From: an uncultured Anaerolineae bacterium
GTDB lineage: Bacteria; Chloroflexota; Anaerolineae; CG2-30-64-16
DNA: 64,000 nt
Assembly (NCBI GenBank): GCA_937124585.1
Contig: CAKZKT010000096.1
Location: 1-64,000, forward strand
Reading direction: 5' to 3'
Position numbers and translations under genes: made by a program. The notes under the pieces are model-generated. The model was not told the DNA's origin and searched no databases. It saw nothing but the letters and a program-made list of their open reading frames with translations. Numbering within the stretch: the stretch's first letter is position 1; the number at the start of each line of letters is the position of its first letter. Positions 2,266-15,775 of this stretch are shown piece by piece.

Positions 2266-3189
2266 ATGTTGAATTTACATGAGCTCAATGTTTTCGTGGA
2301 AGCAGCGCAAGTCGAGAATTTCTCCGTCGCCGCGCGGCGTCTCTATCTGAGCCAGCCGGCCGTCAGCCTGCACGTGCGCAATCTGGAGCAGCAATTCGGA
2401 GTGGAGCTGTTTCAGCGCAATGGCCGCAACATCACGCTCAGCGAGGCGGGAAAGGTCTTACTGCCGCTGGCGCAGCAGGTTCTTTACAATGCCAAACGAC
2501 TGGAAGAGACGATGATGGGGCTGCGCGGCCGGGTCATCGGTCGGCTTTCGATCGCTTGCAGCACAACGGTCGGCAAGTATGTGCTGCCGCGGCTGGTGGC
2601 GGGCTTTCGCAGCTGCTATCCCGATGTCGCGGTCGAGATCAACGTGATGAGCCGCCGGGCCGCGCTGGATTGGCTGCTGGAAGGCCGCGCCGAGATCGCG
2701 GTCGTCTCTACGCACCTCAGCCATCACGACCTGGAATTTGCGCCGTTCTTGACCGATCAGGTGATTCTGATCGTGCCGCCGGGCCATTCGTGGGCTGGCG
2801 GCCAGACGGTGACGCCGCAAGACCTGCGGACTGTGCCGTTCATCCTGCGCGAGGTGACCGCCGGCACCTATGAGGTGCTGGCCGAGGGACTGGCTGCCCA
2901 CGGCATGAGCATCGGGGAGCTACAGGTCGTCTTGACTTTGGCGAATGCCGAGGCGATCGAGATGTCGGTCGAGGCGGGGATCGGCGTGGCGTTCGTTTCA
3001 CGGCTGGCAGCCGCCCGCGGGCTTGCCCTGGGCAAGGTGATCGAGGTGCCCGTGGCAGGCATGCAGCTTTCGCGCGAAATCTACATGGTGCGCCATCGGC
3101 GTCGGCCCAGCACGCCCTTGCAGCAGACCTTCTGGGACTTCGCATTCGCTCCGATCAATGAGCCGATCCGCAAGATGCCGATGGCATGA
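2266..3189 (+). CDS. LysR-family transcriptional regulator
   Basis: The 307-residue product starts at the ATG of MLNLHELNVF, which matches the normal LysR N-terminus. The upstream in-frame extension is not conserved-looking. Residues 1-60 hold the winged HTH (LSQPAVSLHVRNLEQQFG), and residues about 90-295 the periplasmic-binding-like effector domain. The length fits the family (about 300). LysR proteins bind DNA as tetramers and respond to a small co-inducer. Target candidates by position are the divergent PLD-like gene and the convergent cytochrome/rhodanese module, but nothing in the sequence fixes the effector. Confidence 0.9.
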   Translation: MLNLHELNVFVEAAQVENFSVAARRLYLSQPAVSLHVRNLEQQFGVELFQRNGRNITLSEAGKVLLPLAQQVLYNAKRLEETMMGLRGRVIGRLSIACSTTVGKYVLPRLVAGFRSCYPDVAVEINVMSRRAALDWLLEGRAEIAVVSTHLSHHDLEFAPFLTDQVILIVPPGHSWAGGQTVTPQDLRTVPFILREVTAGTYEVLAEGLAAHGMSIGELQVVLTLANAEAIEMSVEAGIGVAFVSRLAAARGLALGKVIEVPVAGMQLSREIYMVRHRRRPSTPLQQTFWDFAFAPINEPIRKMPMA

Positions 3190-3252: not shown

Positions 3253-4713
3253 TCACTGTCCCACTTTCGGCGGTATGCGAGTCGGGATGACGCTCTGATT
3301 GGCCTTTACCTCGTAGGGCTTCAGGTCTTTCTCGCTTAAGAAGAGCTGCTCGTTGCCGTGGCATGCGTCGCAGGTCTTGTTCTGCGGCGTGATGCGCTGG
3401 ATGTTGTGCGGCGTGGCATACTTCCACGTCGGCAGCGCGTCGAACTTCGCCAGGACATCCTTGCCGTAGAAGTCGAAGTTGGTCGGGTCAATCGGCACGT
3501 GGCGCAGCACCACATAGTTCCAGGGCCGGTCGGCGCTCTTCTTCGGGTTCAGGCCGATCTTGAATGTTATCACGCTCGGCTCGATCTTGTAGAACGGCTG
3601 CCCCTTCTCGTTGGTCTGGACATGGCAGCTGTAGCAGCTCTTGTTGGCCACGCTATGGCACACCTGGCAGGCCAGCTTGTCGCCGTGGATGTTGTGCTGC
3701 ATGATCTGCCCCTGGCCGGGCGCCGCGTTGGGATGGCAGTCGAGACAGGCCGGCGCGGGCTTGCCGTCATAGCGTTCTGTCTGGTTCCCGGCTTCGCCCA
3801 TGCCGTGCAATTCCTGGCCGGTGTGGCATTTGAAGCAGGCCATGCCCGCCTTCGTCCAGTGGACATCGGCCGGGATGCCCTCGTTGCGCCCCGTGTATTC
3901 ATCGTTGACGCGCGAGCCGTGACAGCCGGTGCACGTCCGCGTGAAGGCCTGCACCTTCTTGAACTGATGGCCGCTGATCAGGCCGCCGCCCACGCTGGTG
4001 GGCTGGCTGACGTGACACTGGCCGCAGCTGGTGTGGCACGATGAACAGTGGTTGGCTTTGGCTTGCTCCCATGCGGCATGGCTGGCCGGTGCATCGCCCA
4101 GCCGCTGGCTGATGATGGTGTCGTAGCCGTGGGAGTCGAAGTGCAGGCTTTTCACCTGCGCTTTGGTGATGTCGGCGTGGCAGGTGCCGCATAGTTTGGT
4201 GGCCGATTCGGCGTTCGCAGTGGGATCGGTTACGACCCCTTTGTGGGCCACAGCCATGTCATCGGAGCCGCCCTGGCCACCGTGACACTGGATGCAGTTG
4301 GCAACTTTGGCATGTGGATCGTTCTGGACGAACTTCTCAGGATCTACGTAGACTTTTTCCCATGCCTCCACCGGAGGCACTTCTCCTCCTCAGCCTTCAC
4401 CTTCGGAGAGCTTCTCCGTTGGTTCTTCGGCTTTGGCGAGCTGCTGCAGGGTCTCCTGATCGGTGTGGCACTTGACGCAGTTGTCGGCGCTGGACAACGG
4501 CGCGGTCGTCGGCGCCAGCGTGGCCGTGGGCGGCGCCTGAGTCGGCGCCTGCGTGGCGGTCGGCGCCGCCGTGGGTGGAGGCTGTGTGGGCGCTTCTGCG
4601 ACTGGCACAGTGGTCGGCGCAGGCGCCGGTTGCCCGGCGCACGCCGCCAGCAGTCCGATCAGCAGCAGGGCGCCGAACAGCCAGGCGGTGCGCGATATGG
4701 CGTGTTTCAGCAT
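3253..4713 (-). CDS. Selenocysteine-containing 11-heme cytochrome c lipoprotein (read through in-frame UGA)
   Basis: The frame runs from an ATG with an AGGAGGAGG Shine-Dalgarno through a lipoprotein signal (LLIGLLAAC), a Thr/Pro/Ala linker and one CVKCH heme site. It meets a UGA at position 4390-4392 and continues in the same frame to ten more CxxCH sites (CIQCH, CGTCH, CSSCH, CGQCH, CTGCH, CFKCH, CLDCH, CQVCH, CYSCH, CDACH). The downstream half alone could start only at a GTG and would have no export signal, yet c-type hemes are attached outside the cytoplasm. So a single 486-residue product with Sec at residue 108 is the most economical reading. A hairpin matching bacterial SECIS rules follows the UGA. 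The likely role is extracytoplasmic electron transfer. A nonsense mutation or sequencing error remains possible. Confidence 0.75.
4362..4380 (-). promoter_or_regulatory. Candidate bacterial SECIS hairpin downstream of the in-frame UGA
   Basis: In the mRNA, GUGCCUCC pairs with GGAGGCAU (8 bp, one G-U) around the three-base loop GGU. The loop begins 17 nt after the UGA. Published bacterial SECIS rules ask for a G in the first two loop positions and a loop 16-37 nt from the UGA. Both are met. SelB would bind this element to insert selenocysteine. The same hairpin partly masks the alternative GTG start at 4378-4380. Confidence 0.65.
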
Positions 4714-4902: not shown

Positions 4903-5994
4903 CTATTGCCTGCGCAGCGCCAGGCCGGCGCCGGCCAGGCCCAGGCCCACCAAAAGGAGGGCGATCAACGGCGCGCCCGTTTTCGGGACGGTTACCGGAG
5001 CAGGCGCCGCGGCCGGAGCCGCCGCAGCAGGCGCTGCGGCCGGCTGCGGCGAGACCTCCAGCGCATATTTGCCGCTGTTCTTTTCCATGTTCCACACCCC
5101 GATCGAGACACCCTCGACGATCGCCCACGACGGCATGCCGAATTGCAGGTTCCACGCATCATAGCCCAACATGCGCAGTGCGGCGGTCGCCTGGCTAGCC
5201 GACTGTCCGGAGTAGCAGTAGACCACGATCTGTTTGCTCTTAGGGAGTTTGGCCAGTGTCTCGACCTTGAACAGGTTGGCGAGCGTCACATTGGCCGCGC
5301 CCGGGATATGGCCCAGAGCATAGTCCTCGGCCTTGCGCACGTCAATGATCAGCGGATCATTGCCCTTGTCGCCGTCGTTCAGGTTGGCGAAGACATCCGC
5401 GGCTTTAATGTTCTTGAACCCACCGGGGAAATAGGCGATAGCCGCGTCCTGCACGGTTGCACCGAGTGGTTTGGGCGCCTCGCCCTTCTCGGGCAGCTGC
5501 GCGACATCCTTCGAGACCGGGTATTTGCCGCTCTGCTCGGCCTTGAAGGGATAGGTCACCTTGTCGTTGTAGCCCCAGCTGGGGATGCCGTAGGTGAGGT
5601 TGTAGGCATCGAAGCCCAACATGCGCAGGCCGGCCACGGTCTGGCTAGCCGTCTGGCCGCTGTAGCAGTTGACGACGATTTGCTTGTTCTTGGGCAGCTT
5701 GGCCAGCCCCTCGGCGCTGAAGATATCTTTGGCCGTCATGTTGACCGCACCCGGGATGTGGCCGTTGGCGAAATCGGCCGCAGCACGAATGTCAATGATG
5801 TACGGGTCGTTTGATTTGTCGCCGTCGTTGAGGTTGGCGTACAGGTCTTTCGCCGTGATGGTCTTGATGCCGCCGGCGAAATACTTCTCGGCCGCAGCCT
5901 GGATGGGGTCGCCGGCCTGCGCCAGCGCGGTGGTGGCAGTCAGACTCAACAGCAGCAGGACTGCCAGCAAGGTGAATAGAACTTTACGGGACAT
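4903..5994 (-). CDS. Exported tandem-rhodanese protein with C-terminal PKTG/TM/RR anchor
   Basis: The 363-residue product starts at an ATG with a CAGGAGG ribosome site. The signal peptide ends near ATTALAQA. Two rhodanese-homology domains follow, with active-site loops CYSGQTAS (Cys110) and CYSGQSAS (Cys260) and the typical DIR/DVRKAEDYALGHIPGA motifs. The C-terminus has an Ala/Pro linker, then PKTG, a hydrophobic helix and RRQ. That layout resembles a sortase sorting signal or a simple C-terminal membrane anchor. Rhodaneses carry sulfane sulfur, and some carry selenium, on the active cysteine. The neighbour downstream on the same strand is the UGA-containing multiheme cytochrome, suggesting an extracytoplasmic sulfur or selenium redox module. 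Confidence 0.85.
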   Translation of the reverse strand: MSRKVLFTLLAVLLLLSLTATTALAQAGDPIQAAAEKYFAGGIKTITAKDLYANLNDGDKSNDPYIIDIRAAADFANGHIPGAVNMTAKDIFSAEGLAKLPKNKQIVVNCYSGQTASQTVAGLRMLGFDAYNLTYGIPSWGYNDKVTYPFKAEQSGKYPVSKDVAQLPEKGEAPKPLGATVQDAAIAYFPGGFKNIKAADVFANLNDGDKGNDPLIIDVRKAEDYALGHIPGAANVTLANLFKVETLAKLPKSKQIVVYCYSGQSASQATAALRMLGYDAWNLQFGMPSWAIVEGVSIGVWNMEKNSGKYALEVSPQPAAAPAAAAPAAAPAPVTVPKTGAPLIALLLVGLGLAGAGLALRRQ

Positions 5995-6460: not shown

Positions 6461-7099
6461 TCAGTCGTCTGCTGTCGGCTCGGCCTCGTCTGTCAGGCCG
6501 GTATCGTTGTAGCGCCGCGGGCGATGATTGCGCGGCTCGTCATAGAAGACGCGCAGCTCGGCCGTATCGTTGAGGAAGTTGAGCCGGCCGATGACCACGC
6601 CTTTGATCGGCAGGCCGGTGCGCTGTCGCAGGTCAGCGAGGAGCTCGTCGCAACGCTCCGGCGTGATCAGGTCAATGCGATCGTAGCGAATGCGTTGACT
6701 GCTTTCGAAATGAAATCCCCATTCCCGTTCGAGCACGAAGAGCACGCCGGCCATGGTCGCGTTCACGGCCAGCAACACGGTCCAGGCCTGGTCGCGCATC
6801 AGCACCGAGTTGATCACCGGCAGCGCGATGACGATGAAGAGATAGGTCATCTCGCGCGTCGACATCGTGCTGGTGCGATAGCGCAGCACCGAAAAGATGG
6901 CGAACAGGCCCAGTCCCACTCCCAGGCTCAGTTCCGCGCTGGCCAGAAAGCTCACCACGAAATAGATGACGCTATTGATGGCGAGATAGGTGAAGACGTA
7001 ATTTTTGCTCGGATTGGCCGGGTAGTAGATGAAGCGCACGATGGTGAAGGCGATCAGCAGATTGATGGCAAACCCGGCGAACAGGCTGACGAAGTCCAT
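6461..7099 (-). CDS. DUF4956 family membrane protein
   Basis: The product has about 212 residues. It is read from the second ATG (MDFVSLF), because GAGAGG lies six bases before it and abuts the first ATG. Four hydrophobic segments span residues about 8-120, with the conserved GLFAIFSVLRYRTSTMSTREMTY region (positions 6840-6910) typical of DUF4956. A soluble tail follows. The family is uncharacterised, but it is very often encoded next to a VTC-domain protein, as here (10-bp spacing). That suggests a shared role at the membrane, perhaps in polyphosphate or surface polymer metabolism. Confidence 0.85.
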   Translation of the reverse strand: MDFVSLFAGFAINLLIAFTIVRFIYYPANPSKNYVFTYLAINSVIYFVVSFLASAELSLGVGLGLFAIFSVLRYRTSTMSTREMTYLFIVIALPVINSVLMRDQAWTVLLAVNATMAGVLFVLEREWGFHFESSQRIRYDRIDLITPERCDELLADLRQRTGLPIKGVVIGRLNFLNDTAELRVFYDEPRNHRPRRYNDTGLTDEAEPTADD

Positions 7100-7109
7100 G
7101 GACATCCTC

Positions 7110-7943
7110 TCAAGCGAGCGTGGTTTGATCGTTTTCGTGTGTCAGACGGGCCAATAATCGGTGTTTGGCTTTGAAGCGGTTGTATTTGATATCGGAGCGG
7201 AGCAGGCTGATGCCGACGCAATACTTGCTGAATCCGGTCTCGCGCACGTGATACCGGTGCATCAGTCGGACAAACTCCGAAGCAGAGCGGCTGCCCGCGT
7301 ATTTCACTTCGGCGATGACGATGTCGGGCAGCGCGATCTGGCCCGTGTCACGAGCAAATTTCACGTCGAAATCCACCGTAACGCGTTCGGCCTGCCGGGC
7401 GCTGACCAGGGTGATGCGGGTGTAGTGATTCCAGAGGCACGGGATCAATGTGTCGGCCGGATAGGGGCAGGCTTGCGCCAGAAAAGCCTCGGCCTGGGCC
7501 GGCAGCATTGTTACCGGCGCCTCGGTTGGGATGCGTCGCTTCACCGTGCGCCGGCCGCCTGTCCGGTGTTTCACCTCCAGGAAGGCGGTGGCCGAGTCCA
7601 CGTACTCACGCGTGCGCACCTTGTAGCGATCCGGCGCGCCGGCATGGTGGCGACGATACATGGCCAGATCTGAGGTGTCGAAGTAGAGCGTGCGATAGTG
7701 ACTGAGAGGCTGGCCGGCGATCATCAGCACGGCATAGGCATCGCGCAGCTCGCTCAGCACCGGCAAGAGCAGGTGCTGCGGCAACAGGTACTTGATCTCT
7801 GACCGATCGAGCAGCGCTGCGCCTTCCAGCTGCGCCAGAGTGATCGGTTCAAATGTCGCCAGCAGATTCGTCAGGGCTCTGGAGAAAGTCGCTGCGTCTG
7901 CATCCTGGATCATCTGCTCAGTCGTTTCCGTCAGGGTGAACAT
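7110..7943 (-). CDS. VTC-domain (polyphosphate polymerase-like) protein
   Basis: The 277-residue product starts at the ATG of MFTLTETTEQ, preceded by GGAG eight bases upstream. The longer open frame upstream looks non-coding. The body has the VTC tunnel-fold pattern: RSEIKYLLP, SHYRTLYFDT, RYKVRTREY, FLEVKHRTGGRRTVKRR, DFDVKFAR and IVIAEVKY. These are basic residues and acidic metal ligands lining the tunnel. Eukaryotic Vtc4 makes polyphosphate from ATP with this domain. Bacterial versions are mostly untested. It is coupled to the DUF4956 gene downstream. Confidence 0.85.
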   Translation of the reverse strand: MFTLTETTEQMIQDADAATFSRALTNLLATFEPITLAQLEGAALLDRSEIKYLLPQHLLLPVLSELRDAYAVLMIAGQPLSHYRTLYFDTSDLAMYRRHHAGAPDRYKVRTREYVDSATAFLEVKHRTGGRRTVKRRIPTEAPVTMLPAQAEAFLAQACPYPADTLIPCLWNHYTRITLVSARQAERVTVDFDVKFARDTGQIALPDIVIAEVKYAGSRSASEFVRLMHRYHVRETGFSKYCVGISLLRSDIKYNRFKAKHRLLARLTHENDQTTLA

Positions 7944-8291
7944 TTTTCGGCTCCGCACCGCCGCCAGGTGTCTGCCTGGTTCGGCATCAGGTCGGCGGTC
8001 AAGGTATCCGACGCGTTTTTTTACGCGCGTCGTATCTACGGGCATGATGAGGCCGTGCACTGAGGCAAGACTAAGTTGTTGCTGAGTGTTTGCTGAGAAA
8101 GATCAGGGGCACTGCCGTCGGGCCGCGCGCACCTGCGACATATGGCCGCGGGCCGGACTTATGATGAAAGTCGCCGCGTGCCCGGCACGCAGGGTAATTT
8201 TCAGGACAACAAAGGCCGCCGATTATCGGAAAACGCAATGACAACGGTACAATAGTGTCCATAGTTGTCAGGATCCATGCACAGGAGCGAC
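7944..8291. other. Gene-free spacer
   Basis: About 350 bases separate the VTC gene from the decayed plus-strand gene. I find no conserved coding frame and no strong hairpin. A TACAAT hexamer at 8248-8253, about 40 bases before the remnant start codon, could be the relic -10 of that gene. Confidence 0.4.
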
Positions 8292-9720: not shown

Positions 9721-10347
9721 TCACCTGGCCAGGCCCCGCAGAATGGAGACGACCTCGTCGAGTTTCGCGCTCTTCCCGATGAGGATCAGTTCATCGGCCG
9801 GCTGGATCTGCGCGTCGCCTCCGGGGTTCGTGATCATGCGATCGCCGCGCCGGATCGCCAGCACGGTCACGTCATAGCGTCGGCGCATGTTGATCTGCGC
9901 CAGCGTCTGCCCGGCCAGGGGCGATGTAGCGGGCAGCAGCACCTTGAGCACCTGGACGTCGGGCAGATGCTCTTCGAGCTCGGGCAGGGGCACCGACTCC
10001 AGTTGATGCGTGCGGAGGTCGTAATGGCCGCGCAGCTCATCCACGATGGTGCCTTCCCACAGCGGCACGCCGGTGAAATAGGCAGCACGGCCGATCACGT
10101 GGGCCGCCACGGGCGCGCTGATGAAGACGAAGAGGATGATGGCGATCGCGTGGAAGGTGGCGACCAGGTCGTCGAAGTAGATGACCACCGCCAGCATGAC
10201 GGCGCCCATCCCCAGGGTTGAGACCTTGGTGGTGGCAGACATGCGCAGGAACAGGTCGGGCATGCGCGTGATGCCCAGGCCGGCCACGAACATCAGGAAC
10301 GTGCCCACCAGGATCAAGACAATGGTAGCGATCTCTACCATGCTCAT
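9721..10347 (-). CDS. mrpG: MrpG/MnhG antiporter subunit fused to a TrkA_C (RCK_C) domain
   Basis: The 208-residue product is nearly twice the normal MrpG length. Residues 1-110 have the three-helix MnhG pattern (ITRMPDLFLRMSATTKVSTLG, positions about 10230-10290). Residues about 120-205 form an RCK_C/TrkA_C domain (LLPATSPLAGQTLAQINMR, then ADELILIGKSAKLDEVVSIL), which usually binds nucleotides or ions and gates K+ transporters. The start overlaps the end of mrpF by four bases. The fusion suggests ligand-dependent regulation of this Mrp complex. It is the last gene of the second Mrp set. Confidence 0.9.
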   Translation of the reverse strand: MSMVEIATIVLILVGTFLMFVAGLGITRMPDLFLRMSATTKVSTLGMGAVMLAVVIYFDDLVATFHAIAIILFVFISAPVAAHVIGRAAYFTGVPLWEGTIVDELRGHYDLRTHQLESVPLPELEEHLPDVQVLKVLLPATSPLAGQTLAQINMRRRYDVTVLAIRRGDRMITNPGGDAQIQPADELILIGKSAKLDEVVSILRGLAR

Positions 10348-10613
10348 ACCCTTCTCTCGAGGTAATGCGCGAACGCCACCGTCCCCAGGAAGGAGATCAG
10401 TGCCAGCACGATGGCCAGGTCGAGCAGCACCGGCTCATCGGTAGCGATGGCGTAGACCGCGATGATCCCGATCATCAGCGTGGAGATCAGGTCCAGCGCC
10501 ACCACGCGGTCGGGCAGCGAAGGCCCGCGCACCAGGCGCACGAAGGCCAGGATCACCGCGATGGTCAGTAACGGGAAAGCCACGAATACCACCAGCCCCT
10601 GCACCGGCGTCAT
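10344..10613 (-). CDS. mrpF: MrpF/MnhF antiporter subunit
   Basis: The 89-residue product has three TM helices. The signature [19 protein letters not shown] between the first two helices is the family's conserved stretch. MrpF is one of the small essential subunits of the seven-part Na+/H+ antiporter. The ATG overlaps the mrpE stop region and its end overlaps mrpG, so translation is coupled. Confidence 0.92.
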
Positions 10614-11080
10614 CGCAACACCTCCAACACACGGCGCTCGAAGCCCTCTTTGATCTGACGCCGAAACTTGTCGGTCTCATCCCCCAGCGTTATGGAGTGG
10701 ATGTAGATCACGCGGCGGTCGGCCGAGACGTCCAGGCTGAGGGTGCCCGGCGTGAGGGTGATCAAGTTGGCCAGCAACGCGATCTCCACATCGGTGCGCA
10801 CGTCCAGCGGCACCGCAATGACGGCCGGCCGCATCTTACCTCGCGGGGCCAGGATGTGATAGGTGACCTGCAGGTTGGCCTTGACCATCTCCCACAAGAA
10901 GAAGGCGATGAAGCCCAGCACCTGCCACACTTTCGTAAAGTAACCATGTGGTTTCCCGCTGCGCTGCGCGATCCACAACATCACATAGCCCAGCGCAAAA
11001 CCGAAGGCCAGGTTGAGCGGCGTGAATTGCCCGGTTAGAGCGACCCAGGCCAGCGCCAGCAAGATGTTCAGCAGCAGCAC
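10610..11080 (-). CDS. mrpE: MrpE/MnhE antiporter subunit
   Basis: The 156-residue product has N-terminal TM helices ([20 protein letters not shown]), a central [22 protein letters not shown] (about 10855-10930), and a soluble C-terminal half with the MnhE motif [12 protein letters not shown]. It sits two bases downstream of mrpD and overlaps mrpF. MrpE supports assembly and stability of the antiporter. Confidence 0.92.
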
Positions 11081-11082
11081 GG

Positions 11083-12573
11083 TTACCGCCCTCCCAACAC
11101 GGTTTGGATGTACGCGGCCGGGTTCAGCAACTGCTCGGCAGCTGCGGTGGACAGGGCTAGCAGCGGTTCGGCCAGCAACCCGATGCTGAGCGTCAGCAGT
11201 GCCAGCACGGCGATGGGCAGGATCATGCCGGCCAGCCCGACCTGGGAGGCCGGCAGGGCGGCCCTAGCCGGCGCCGGCTTCCAGAAGACCTCACCCCAGA
11301 TCTTGGTCATCGAGAAGAGGGTCAGCAGGCTGACCCCCAGCGCGACCGCCACGATGGCATATTGCCCCGTATCCAGCCCGGCCACGATCAGGGTCAGCTT
11401 GGCCCAGAAGCCGGAGAGGGGCGGGATGCCCGCCAGCGAAAGGGCCGGGATCAGGAACAGCACGCCCAGGCCCGGATAAGCCGCGTAGAAGCCGCCCAGC
11501 TTCTTGAGATAGTCGCTGCCTCCCAGGCGTTGGGTCACGCCGCTGATCAGGAACAGGTTGGTTTTGACGATGATATGGTGGGCGATGTAGAAGACCGAGC
11601 CGGCCAGCGCCAGCGGCGTGAACAGGCCCAGCCCCATGATCATGTAGCCGATCTGGCTGACGATGTGGAACGACAGGATGCGCCGGAAGCTGTTCTGCGC
11701 CACCGCGCCCAGCACCCCCGTGACCATGGTCAGGCCGGCCAGGATCAGGATCAGGGTGTGGGTGAAGGCGACATCCTGGACGAAGAGCAGGGTGAAGACG
11801 CGGATCAGCGCGTAGACCCCCACTTTGGTCAGCAACCCGGCGAAGATGGCCGACACGGCCACCGGCGGCGTGTGATACGAGGCCGGCAGCCAGAAGAAGA
11901 GCGGGAAGATGGCCGACTTGATGCCGAAGGCCACCAGGAACAAGATGCTCAGCGTGGTCACCAATCCGGGTTGAGCGACCTGATGGAGTTGCACCGCAAG
12001 GTCGGCCATGTTCAGGGTGCCGGCCACGCCGTAGAGCGAGCCCACCGCGGCCAGGAAGAGCGCCGAGGACATCAGGTTCAGCGTGACGTATTTGATCGCG
12101 CCCTCCAGCTGCGCGCGCTCGCCGCCCAGCGCCACCAGCACGAACGAGGAGACCAGCATCACCTCGAACCAGACGTACAGGTTGAAGATGTCGCCGGTCA
12201 GGAACGCGCCGCAGACTCCCATCAGCAGGATGTGCAGCAGCGGGTAGTAGCCGAAGCGCTCGCGGGCGGGGTCCATGCTGGCCAGCGAGTAGACCGCCAC
12301 GGCCAGGCCCATCAGCCCGGCCAGCACCAGCATGATGGCGCTGAACAGATCTGCTGCCAGCGTGATGCCGTAGGGCGCAGGCCAGTTGCCGATGTACGCC
12401 ACCTGGATGCCCTCTCGCCGGACGAACTCCAGCAGGGCCAGCGCGGCCGCCAGCAACGCGGCCGCGCCCAGCGCACTGAGCCACCGCTGTGCCCATCGCC
12501 ACCGGCCGGCCAGCACCGTCAGGATCGCCGTCGCCAGCGGCACAATCAAAGGCAACACCAGGATCAAATTCAT
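11083..12573 (-). CDS. mrpD: MrpD/MnhD proton-translocating subunit
   Basis: The 496-residue, roughly 14-TM protein belongs to the NuoM/N-like proton-translocating family. Typical landmarks are [18 protein letters not shown] with the key acidic residue, [33 protein letters not shown], and [15 protein letters not shown] with the conserved Lys. MrpD carries one of the antiporter's ion pathways. It follows mrpC after a 55-bp microsatellite spacer. Confidence 0.93.
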
Positions 12574-12577
12574 CCTC

Positions 12578-12626
12578 CCCCCATCTCCTTGTTTCCTTGC
12601 CTCCTTGTCTACCTGTCTATCCGTTT
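12578..12626. repeat. Polypyrimidine microsatellite in the mrpC-mrpD spacer
   Basis: The spacer is a degenerate run of CTCCTTGTTTCCTTG / GTCTACCTGTCTATC units. Read on the coding strand it is a purine-rich GGAGACAAGGAAACAAGG tract right before the mrpD start. The same two unit types recur at 16127-16225 and 19058-19107. It may stand in for, or hide, the Shine-Dalgarno. Confidence 0.7.
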
Positions 12627-12628
12627 CC

Positions 12629-12979
12629 TCAACCCGTATCCGTGCTCTTCATATCATCCAAATCATCGGTGCCCACGGTTTGATAAGCCCGCTTGATGAG
12701 CACCACAGCAAAGGCCTGGACGCCGAAGCCGATGACGATGGCGGTGAGAATGAGCGCTTGAGGCAGCGGGTCGGCGATGGGCCTCTCCGGCCGGATTCCA
12801 CCCGGCGGGATCAGCGCCGGTTCCCCGCGCGTGAGACGACCCAGGGTAAAGATGAGGAGATTGGCCGCATGCGCCAGCAGCGAGAGCCCGATGATCAGCT
12901 TGACGATGCTACGCCGCATCATCATGTACAGGCCGGCCGCGTACAGCCCCCCGATCACGAAGGCCAGGAACGTCTCCAT
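12629..12979 (-). CDS. mrpC: MrpC/MnhC (NuoK-like) subunit
   Basis: The 116-residue product has three TM helices homologous to NuoK ([57 protein letters not shown]). The conserved DPLPQALVLTAIVI stretch is diagnostic of MrpC. It directly follows mrpB by one base. Confidence 0.93.
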
Positions 12980-12980
12980 G

Positions 12981-13388
12981 TCATGCCTCCGCCAGCGCGA
13001 AGATGATGGTCAGCGTCACCCCGATCACCACCAGATAGACGCCGATGTCGAACAGGAGCGGCGTGCCCACCTTGCCCAGAATCGGCCAGGCGTATTCGCT
13101 CCAGAGCCCGGTCATAAAGGGCAGGCCCTGGGCCAGGCTGACCACGCCGCTGCCCAGCGCGACCAGCAGCCCAAGGCCGATCAAGAAGCGCGGGTCAATC
13201 CCCAGCACGCGGCGGGCAGTCGCCACATCGTAGGCGATGGCGTACAGGCTGAAAGCAGCCGCCGCCACCAACCCGCCCACGAACCCGCCGCCGGGCTCGT
13301 TGTGGCCGCGCAACAGCAAGAAGACCGAAAAGAGCAGCAGCAACGGCAACATGTAGCGCGCGGCAGTGGAAAGGATCAGGGATGTCAT
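12981..13388 (-). CDS. mrpB: MrpB/MnhB subunit
   Basis: The 135-residue, four-TM protein has the family signature [20 protein letters not shown]. The start overlaps the end of mrpA by four bases. In this second Mrp set MrpB is separate, unlike the fused copy upstream. Confidence 0.93.
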
Positions 13389-15775
13389 TTGTTCTTCTCG
13401 TCCAGACGCAATTTCAACAGTGCATACACCCCGATGCCCGCGACGGCCAGCACCGTGATCTCGCCCAGGGTGTCCAGCCCGCGAAAATCCACCAGGATCA
13501 CGTTGTCAATGTTGCGGCCGCGCGCCAGCGGCACCGCGTTGGCCACGAAGTAGGGGGTCAGGCGTGACTGCAGCGGCGCGGAGGTGACCACCAACACCAG
13601 TGCGGTCATCAGCGCGCCGGCGGCCAGCGCCACCACCGCATCGCGTATCCGGTCACGCCGGCTGGAGTAATAGGCGAACCGCGGCAGCCGGTAGAGTACC
13701 AGCACGAACAGGAAGACGGTGAGCGTCTCGATGGCGAACTGGGTCATGGCCAGGTCGGGCGCGCCGAACAGGGTGAAGATCAGCGCCACGCCGTAGCCCA
13801 CCACCCCCAGCGCCGCTACCACGGTCAGCCGCGAGGTGGAGAGCAGCGCCAGCAGGGTTGCCGCCAGGATCAGCAGGCCGATCAAGATCTCGTACAACCG
13901 CACGTCGGACGACCGGCCGGCGGGCCACGTCAGCCCGGTGCGGCTGAGCAGCGTGTAACCGCCCAGCCCGACGGTGGTGAGCATAACGATGATCAAATAG
14001 AAGCGCAGATAGCCGCTCTGGAGCAGGCGGGTTTGGGTCGTCGCCAGGCTGTTGAGGCCGCGCAACGCCAGGTCATACCCGCCCTCCGGCCCCCAGTGGC
14101 CCACGACCCGCAGGCCGGTGATTAACCAGGGCACGAACCGTTGCGCGGCCCGGTACAGCGGATCGCGTCCCACATAGATGGCCGCGCCCACGATCACGGT
14201 CAGCACGCTCAGCGCAAAGATCGGGCTGATGCCGTGCCACAGCGCCAGCTCGACCACCGTAGGCTTCCCGCGCACGGCGCTGGCCGCGGCCGACACCAGC
14301 GCGCTGGGCAGCGCGTCGGGGAAGAGACCGTTGATCAGCCCCAGCCCGGCCAGCGCCGCCGGCCCCAGCCACATGGCCAACGGCGCCTCGTGCGGTTCTT
14401 TGTGGACCGCCTCGGACGTGCCAGGCACTTCCGAAGTGCCTGGCACGTGGGGCCGCGCGTCCGGCGCATTGCTCCTGCTCCAAAACGGCCGAATGCCCAC
14501 GAGGCCGGCCACCGCCACCAGCAGCATGTTGGCCGCCACGCCGGTCGCAGTGATCAGGCCTGCAGCGCGCGGGGCCTGCAACTTGGCCTCGTACAGCAGC
14601 TCTTTGTTGATGAAGCCGAGCATCGGCGGCAGCCCGGCCATGGAGAGCGCGGCCAAGCCAGCCGCCGCCGCGGTGATGGGCATGGCCCGCGCCAGCCCGC
14701 CCAGCCGCCGGATGTCGCGCGTGCCGGCCTCATGATCTACCGCGCCGGCGACCAGGAACAGCGCGCCCTTGTACAGCGCATGCACCAGCAGGAAGAGCAT
14801 GGCCGCCTTGGCCGACAGGGTCGTGTCCAGCCCCAGCAGCAGGGTCAGCGCGCCCAACGTGCTGACGGTGGAATAGGCCAGGATACGTTTGAGGTCGGTC
14901 TGCCCCAGCGCCAGCAGCGCGGCCAGCAGCATGGTCGCCATCCCCGCGCCGGTCACCAGGTAGTGCCACGCCTCGGTATCGCCCAGCACCGGGCTGAGCC
15001 GGGCCAGCAGGTAGACGCCCGCCTTGACCATGGTCGCCGAGTGCAGATATGCGCTGACCGGGGTGGGCGCCTCCATGGCATTGGGCAGCCAGAAGTGGAA
15101 GGGCACCTGGGCCGATTTGGTGAACGCGCCCAGCAGGATCAGCAGCAGGATCGGCAGGTAGAGCGCGTGCTCTCGGATCGCGGCGCCGTTGCTCAGCAGC
15201 GCGGCCAGCTCCAGGCTGCCTGTCACCTGCCCCATCAAGACCAGCCCGGCCAGCAGCGCCAGTCCGCCGCCGCCCGTCACCAGCAGCGCCTGCAGCGCGG
15301 CCGCGCGCGCCTTTTCCCGCTCATGATCCAGCCCGATGAGCAGGTAGGAGGTCAGGCTGGTGAGCTCCCAGAAGACGAACAGGGTGATCGCGTTGCCGGC
15401 CAGCACCAGCCCCAGCATCGAAGCCATGAACATCAGCACCAGCGCGTAGAAGCGGCCCAGCTGCGGCTTGCCGGCCAGGTAGCCGCCGGCGTAGATCACC
15501 ACCAGCGTGCCGATGCCGCTGATGAGCAGCGCGAAGAGCAGGCTCAGCCCGTCCAGATAGAACGACAGGCTGACCCCCAGGCCGGGGACCCACGGATAGG
15601 ACGTGATGACAACGAAATCGGGCCTCAGCTCGCGCAGGTAGGCGGCAAAGTAGAACGTCAGCCCGGCCGGCAGCAGGGCCAGGAGCCAGCCGGCCGATCT
15701 GCGGCCGACGCGGTGCACCCACGGCGCGATCACGGCCAGCAGGAAACCCGACAAGACTGCGATGACGATGTCCAT
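13385..15775 (-). CDS. mrpA: MrpA/MnhA large subunit
   Basis: The 796-residue product holds a NuoL-like core (residues about 60-430: [54 protein letters not shown]) plus the C-terminal DUF4040/MbhD-like helices ([19 protein letters not shown]). MrpA provides the Na+/H+ translocation path. Around residues 440-455 the text [12 protein letters not shown] comes from an in-frame palindromic repeat in a cytoplasmic loop. The start follows the previous MrpG stop by three bases, so the two Mrp sets are probably co-transcribed. Confidence 0.93.
14416..14448. repeat. 33-bp perfect palindromic repeat inside mrpA
   Basis: ACGTGCCAGGCACTTC, one central base, and its exact complement give a 16-bp perfect stem. 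The copy lies in frame within mrpA and encodes [11 protein letters not shown]. Related copies are at 17021-17170, 25193-25274, 27868-27901 and 53636-53662, so it is a dispersed family in this genome. Confidence 0.9.

Follow-up and report, generated by a model that had tools for sequence, protein, structure and literature searches.

The window, that is, the whole 64,000-nucleotide stretch of Chloroflexota DNA analyzed here, carries a minus-strand gene for a multiheme cytochrome that is interrupted by an in-frame UGA and lies between genes for a rhodanese-like protein and a LysR-type regulator. The relevant features are:

2266..3189, plus strand: LysR regulator of the selenium-metabolism subfamily (NF040786), convergent with the cytochrome gene
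3253..4713, minus strand: predicted selenocysteine (Sec) 11-heme c-type cytochrome lipoprotein, read as one frame across the UGA (486 residues and a terminal stop)
4362..4380, minus strand: SECIS-type hairpin, 7-8 bp stem and GGU loop, the loop 17 nt after the UGA
4390..4392, minus strand: UGA codon 108, predicted to be read as Sec, context SEGEG-U-GGEVPP, with TGA in the same column in 72 loci
4639..4713, minus strand: lipoprotein signal peptide (MLKH...LLAAC) with lipobox LAAC and Cys25
4903..5994, minus strand: exported protein with two rhodanese domains and CYSGQ active-site loops, directly upstream of the cytochrome (Pfam Rhodanese, 9.4e-37)

The cytochrome gene starts with ATG at 4713 and contains only two in-frame stops, TGA at codons 108 (4392-4390) and 487, the latter being the terminal codon, so that, as the original prediction had it, a lipoprotein half with one CxxCH and a ten-heme half share one frame with a single UGA between them. 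The read-through product contains 11 CxxCH motifs, 1 before the UGA and 10 after it, in agreement with the proposed position of the selenium between the first heme and the ten-heme body, and the residues around the UGA read SEGEG-U-GGEVPPVEAWEKV. Because every cysteine except the lipobox Cys25 is part of a heme motif, the protein has no other free thiol. Ten histidines outside the motifs are conserved (134, 157, 191, 222, 249, 285, 303, 343, 405 and 436), and most homologues possess a lipobox or an N-terminal membrane segment equivalent to that of the window protein. The product would thus be a single selenoprotein that is exported and lipid-anchored, an 11-heme cytochrome c with one Sec on a glycine-rich loop at the junction of heme 1 and the ten-heme body. 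A PDB profile search with the cytochrome yielded only short, weak heme-repeat matches, and AlphaFold modeling of this protein and three close relatives gave a pLDDT of 32 and a pTM of 0.20, so the model was left unused. The plasmid search and the Rfam search of the window returned no match. An alternative genetic code was rejected because TGA also terminates the same gene.

The source genome (4.83 Mb, 99.8% complete) encodes the Sec machinery that the original prediction had proposed to look for: a tRNA-Sec with the anticodon UCA (74.8 bits), selA, selB, and two copies of selD. The selD copies (C137:32079-33008 and C89:3094-4026, loci L052 and L053) are probably selenoproteins themselves, because each contains one in-frame TGA. 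Among the 26 other genomes with a UGA-containing cytochrome, selB scores above the cut-off in 25, and a tRNA-Sec match passes stricter filters in 20. In one such genome, G129 (87% complete), neither selB nor tRNA-Sec was detected, which counts against the explanation that we favor below.

Downstream of the UGA lies a hairpin, GTGCCTCC-GGT-GGAGGCAT, with a stem of 7 strong pairs, or 8 with a terminal G-U, as originally described (8 bp with a GGU loop). The stated distance of eighteen bases from the UGA is roughly right for the loop, which starts after 17 nt, but wrong for the stem, which starts 10 nt after the UGA. With a stability of -12.6 kcal/mol for a 27-nt stretch, the hairpin satisfies the published bacterial SECIS rules, namely, a loop of 3-9 nt with G in the first two loop positions, located 16-37 nt from the UGA, a stem of 4-16 bp and an MFE of at most -7.5 (PMC13188914), as do 61 of the 64 distinct homologous hairpins. 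Among synonymous recodings, 2.5% reached the stability of the window hairpin; for many homologues the share was <1%, with no or hardly any recodings as stable. By this measure alone, the hairpins of some other homologues are not distinctive. Pair counting, on 24 and then on 64 distinct sequences, found 90% of the stem cells paired, compared with 42-55% for slid partners, the control. Compensatory changes in the stem exceed those in any of 500 shuffles: 28 cells are changed on both sides in the 64 sequences, against a shuffled mean of 7.0. The count of stem pairs altered on both sides is unremarkable in the 64-sequence set (213 of 500 shuffles). Compensatory pairs include G15-C29, which is also found as C-G and A-U, C16-G28, also G-C, and C20-G24, also A-U. 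The hairpin is more than chance.

Homologue searches covered the relatives, the class and the phylum of the source genome, an evidence base that is genomic and consists mostly of metagenome assemblies. The cytochrome family was found in 74 of the 396 sampled genomes of the class and in a few genomes from elsewhere in the phylum, and TGA occupies the codon-108 column in 72 loci of the scanned Chloroflexota genomes. Where the original prediction expected UGA or Cys in this column, the first is common and the second was never seen in the examined loci: the exceptions carry TGG (L096), TTG (L097), GTG (L106 and L121), TTT (the second copy in L171) and CAC (L172), so that Sec is replaced by Trp, Leu, Val, Phe or His. 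In the family tree, the non-UGA variants fall at four separate points, in every case next to or inside a UGA-bearing group, suggesting that Sec is probably ancestral and was lost at least four times. The hairpin is degraded in all these variants except the TGG one, whose two sisters retain UGA. In the distant 13-heme homologues L122 and L123, the whole Sec loop is missing, as if it had been inserted into, or deleted from, a multiheme scaffold. Among the other members of the family, L173 and L174 are Sec cytochromes with long C-terminal extensions that add further heme motifs and end in a membrane helix, and L171 (genome G625) combines two paralogues on one contig, a UGA copy near a rhodanese gene and a Phe copy with none adjacent.

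These patterns bear on a competing interpretation, that the UGA is a true stop, that the gene is a pseudogene, or that the UGA is misread as Trp through ordinary near-cognate readthrough. A close homologue, L031, indeed has TGG at this position, and the original prediction regarded such a Trp homologue as evidence against Sec; on the tree, however, the L031 branch adjoins UGA-bearing sisters and derives recently from them. Given also that the 3' part alone lacks a signal peptide and that the UGA, the frame and the hairpin, with its compensatory pairing, persist across 72 loci, we consider this interpretation highly improbable and rejected it. By contrast, the Sec reading put forward originally is strongly supported by the sel genes, the UGA in the same column in 72 loci and the covarying hairpin, and Sec is almost certainly inserted at codon 108.

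The genomic neighborhood suggests a partner for this residue. The rhodanese protein of the window retains intact CYSGQ loops, and a rhodanese gene is located within 1.5 kb in 63 of the 64 UGA loci with sufficient flanking sequence versus none of the 5 such non-UGA loci (Fisher p = 5e-7, a value that ignores relatedness, with 2 of the 5 non-UGA loci being the distant L122 and L123). The sole evaluable UGA locus without a rhodanese gene, L125, counts against our preferred explanation. At the four independent losses of Sec, no adjacent rhodanese gene is present, as far as the contigs show. The change of UGA to UGG that separates the Trp variant L096 from its UGA sister L095 is accompanied by a clean absence of the rhodanese gene in L096. 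Furthermore, rhodanese and Sec cytochrome form one open frame in L124 (3-2402) and in L176 (minus strand), the latter fusion being complete, with an N-terminal membrane-type signal; as these loci are sisters on the tree, they probably reflect one fusion event. A functional tie between the cytochrome and the rhodanese is, in our assessment, quite likely.

On the other side of the cytochrome gene, the LysR regulator scores 253.7 bits against NF040786, the model of selenium metabolism-associated LysR proteins (cut-off 250), and seven regulators from related loci likewise have NF040786 as their best family, at scores slightly below the cut-off. The LysR_Se/HrsM subfamily, which this model represents, has been proposed as a selenium regulator and was noted beside selA, selB and selD (PMC5322559), whereas the window regulator, although above the curated cut-off, flanks a selenoprotein gene instead. 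Together with the signal peptide and single heme encoded upstream of the UGA, this regulator could hint at a selenium switch, in which the UGA serves as a selenium-dependent terminator, so that a one-heme lipoprotein would be made under selenium scarcity and the full protein otherwise. However, truncation without selenium holds for any Sec gene, and the full-length protein was retained in lineages that lost Sec, making such a switch an improbable explanation, even slightly more so than membership in the Geobacter module discussed below. In many relatives, genes for ferredoxin/NrfD or for cytochrome b561/octaheme tetrathionate reductase-like proteins are found nearby. L102, L106, L135 and others have a conserved module of a nine-heme cytochrome, a cytochrome b561-like protein and an octaheme tetrathionate reductase-like cytochrome beside the Sec cytochrome; the same module also occurs beside non-Sec copies.

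The conserved UGA and hairpin, the complete Sec machinery, and the linkage to rhodanese and to the selenium-associated LysR lead us to the following explanation. SelB would read the hairpin and insert Sec; after export, the neighboring rhodanese would donate a sulfane sulfur (or selenium) atom from its persulfide to the selenol, forming an Se-S bond, and the heme chain would supply or remove the electrons for the cleavage of that bond. Sulfur or selenium chemistry on the outside could in this way be linked to the quinone pool, in many relatives via the co-encoded NrfD/ferredoxin or cytochrome b561 modules. We assign this mechanism as a whole a probability of about 45%, and the same holds for the broader reading, that of an undescribed, widespread, selenium-dependent respiratory system of Chloroflexota, in which a rhodanese would pass sulfane sulfur or selenium to the selenol of an 11-heme cytochrome that has no Cys counterpart, under the control of a selenium-sensing LysR and with Sec and rhodanese lost together. 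Indeed, the retention of UGA in more than 70 gene copies, nearly always beside a sulfur-transfer gene, points to an undescribed selenium-dependent electron-transfer system. The lack of any Cys homologue that would show redox use of the Sec position counts against this explanation.

The main alternative is that the protein is a genuine Sec cytochrome in which selenium is non-catalytic, acting as an axial ligand or a tuning residue of one heme. With 11 hemes and only ten conserved non-motif histidines, one heme is left without a conserved distal His, and selenium might fill that place. Nevertheless, L031, L035 and L172, whose Sec site is occupied by Trp, Leu or His, retain all ten histidines, and both the fusions and the joint loss of Sec and rhodanese point to a sulfur partner; we thus regard heme ligation as rather unlikely, albeit clearly ahead of the other alternatives.

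A further possibility is that the window cytochrome is a diverged member of the ExtKL module of Geobacter (GSU2937-2936). The comparison that the original prediction drew with Geobacter Sec cytochromes beside a rhodanese-like protein was essentially sound: ExtKL is described as a putative Sec cytochrome whose genes cluster with that of the rhodanese-like ExtH (PMC5877670, PMC6148476). The two proteins share the general plan of an exported multiheme c-type cytochrome with one predicted Sec and a rhodanese-like protein in the cluster (4903-5994 in the window), and members of the family described here weakly match other cytochromes of the ext cluster, such as ExtM. However, ExtKL, which is described together with the porin ExtI and with ExtM/N, is a pentaheme protein in which the UGA follows the heme domain and precedes a small protein (PMC5877670, PMC6148476), whereas the window protein has 11 hemes and the UGA between hemes 1 and 2. 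Our comparison relied on the NCBIfam model NF040886 and the published descriptions; this model (cut-off 250 bits) did not match the window cytochrome at E<=10, and its matches within the source genome are weak, below 32 bits, and located away from the cytochrome. The suggestion that the locus is a version of the Geobacter module therefore did not hold up, and we view such membership as improbable: the window cytochrome may work like ExtKL in outline, with membership in that family unsupported by a model match.

An inventory published in 2026, which covers 119 families of prokaryotic selenoproteins, includes two Sec multiheme cytochromes: ExtKL and a tetrathionate reductase family octaheme cytochrome (TIGR04315; PMC13188914). 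The latter resembles the window protein in being a Sec multiheme cytochrome but has eight hemes rather than 11; TIGR04315 does not match the window cytochrome, and a protein that matches it below the cut-off is encoded beside the cytochromes of many relatives. The window cytochrome is neither of the two inventoried proteins. DmsE/NrfB/MtrC-type domains (TIGR03508, TIGR03146, PF22113) show local heme-repeat similarity to it, but the NCBIfam matches fall far below the full-length cut-offs and lack the Sec loop. No description of Sec cytochromes from Chloroflexota was found in the searched non-subscription literature, to which any claim of priority is limited. To the extent covered by this literature and NCBIfam, the cytochrome represents a new selenoprotein family; its kind, the Sec multiheme cytochrome, is known, but its architecture is new.

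Searches for selenoproteins usually rely on matching a UGA to Cys in homologues, and such homologues are customary for a bacterial selenoprotein but not required. A family that lacks them is invisible to methods based on Cys/Sec pairs and could be missed, so that selenoprotein families lacking Cys counterparts may be under-counted. Moreover, Sec in a cytochrome that has no free cysteine and is genetically tied to a rhodanese offers a system in which the coupling of selenium and sulfane-sulfur chemistry to hemes can be tested and, given its occurrence in 74 of 396 genomes of the class, the family may matter for sulfur and selenium cycling by uncultured Chloroflexota.

Elsewhere in the window, two adjacent open reading frames at 6461-8060 resemble, by sequence appearance, a DUF4956-type membrane protein and a VTC-type polyphosphate polymerase, and a cluster of open reading frames at 9721-15775 similarly resembles an Mrp-type sodium/proton antiporter.
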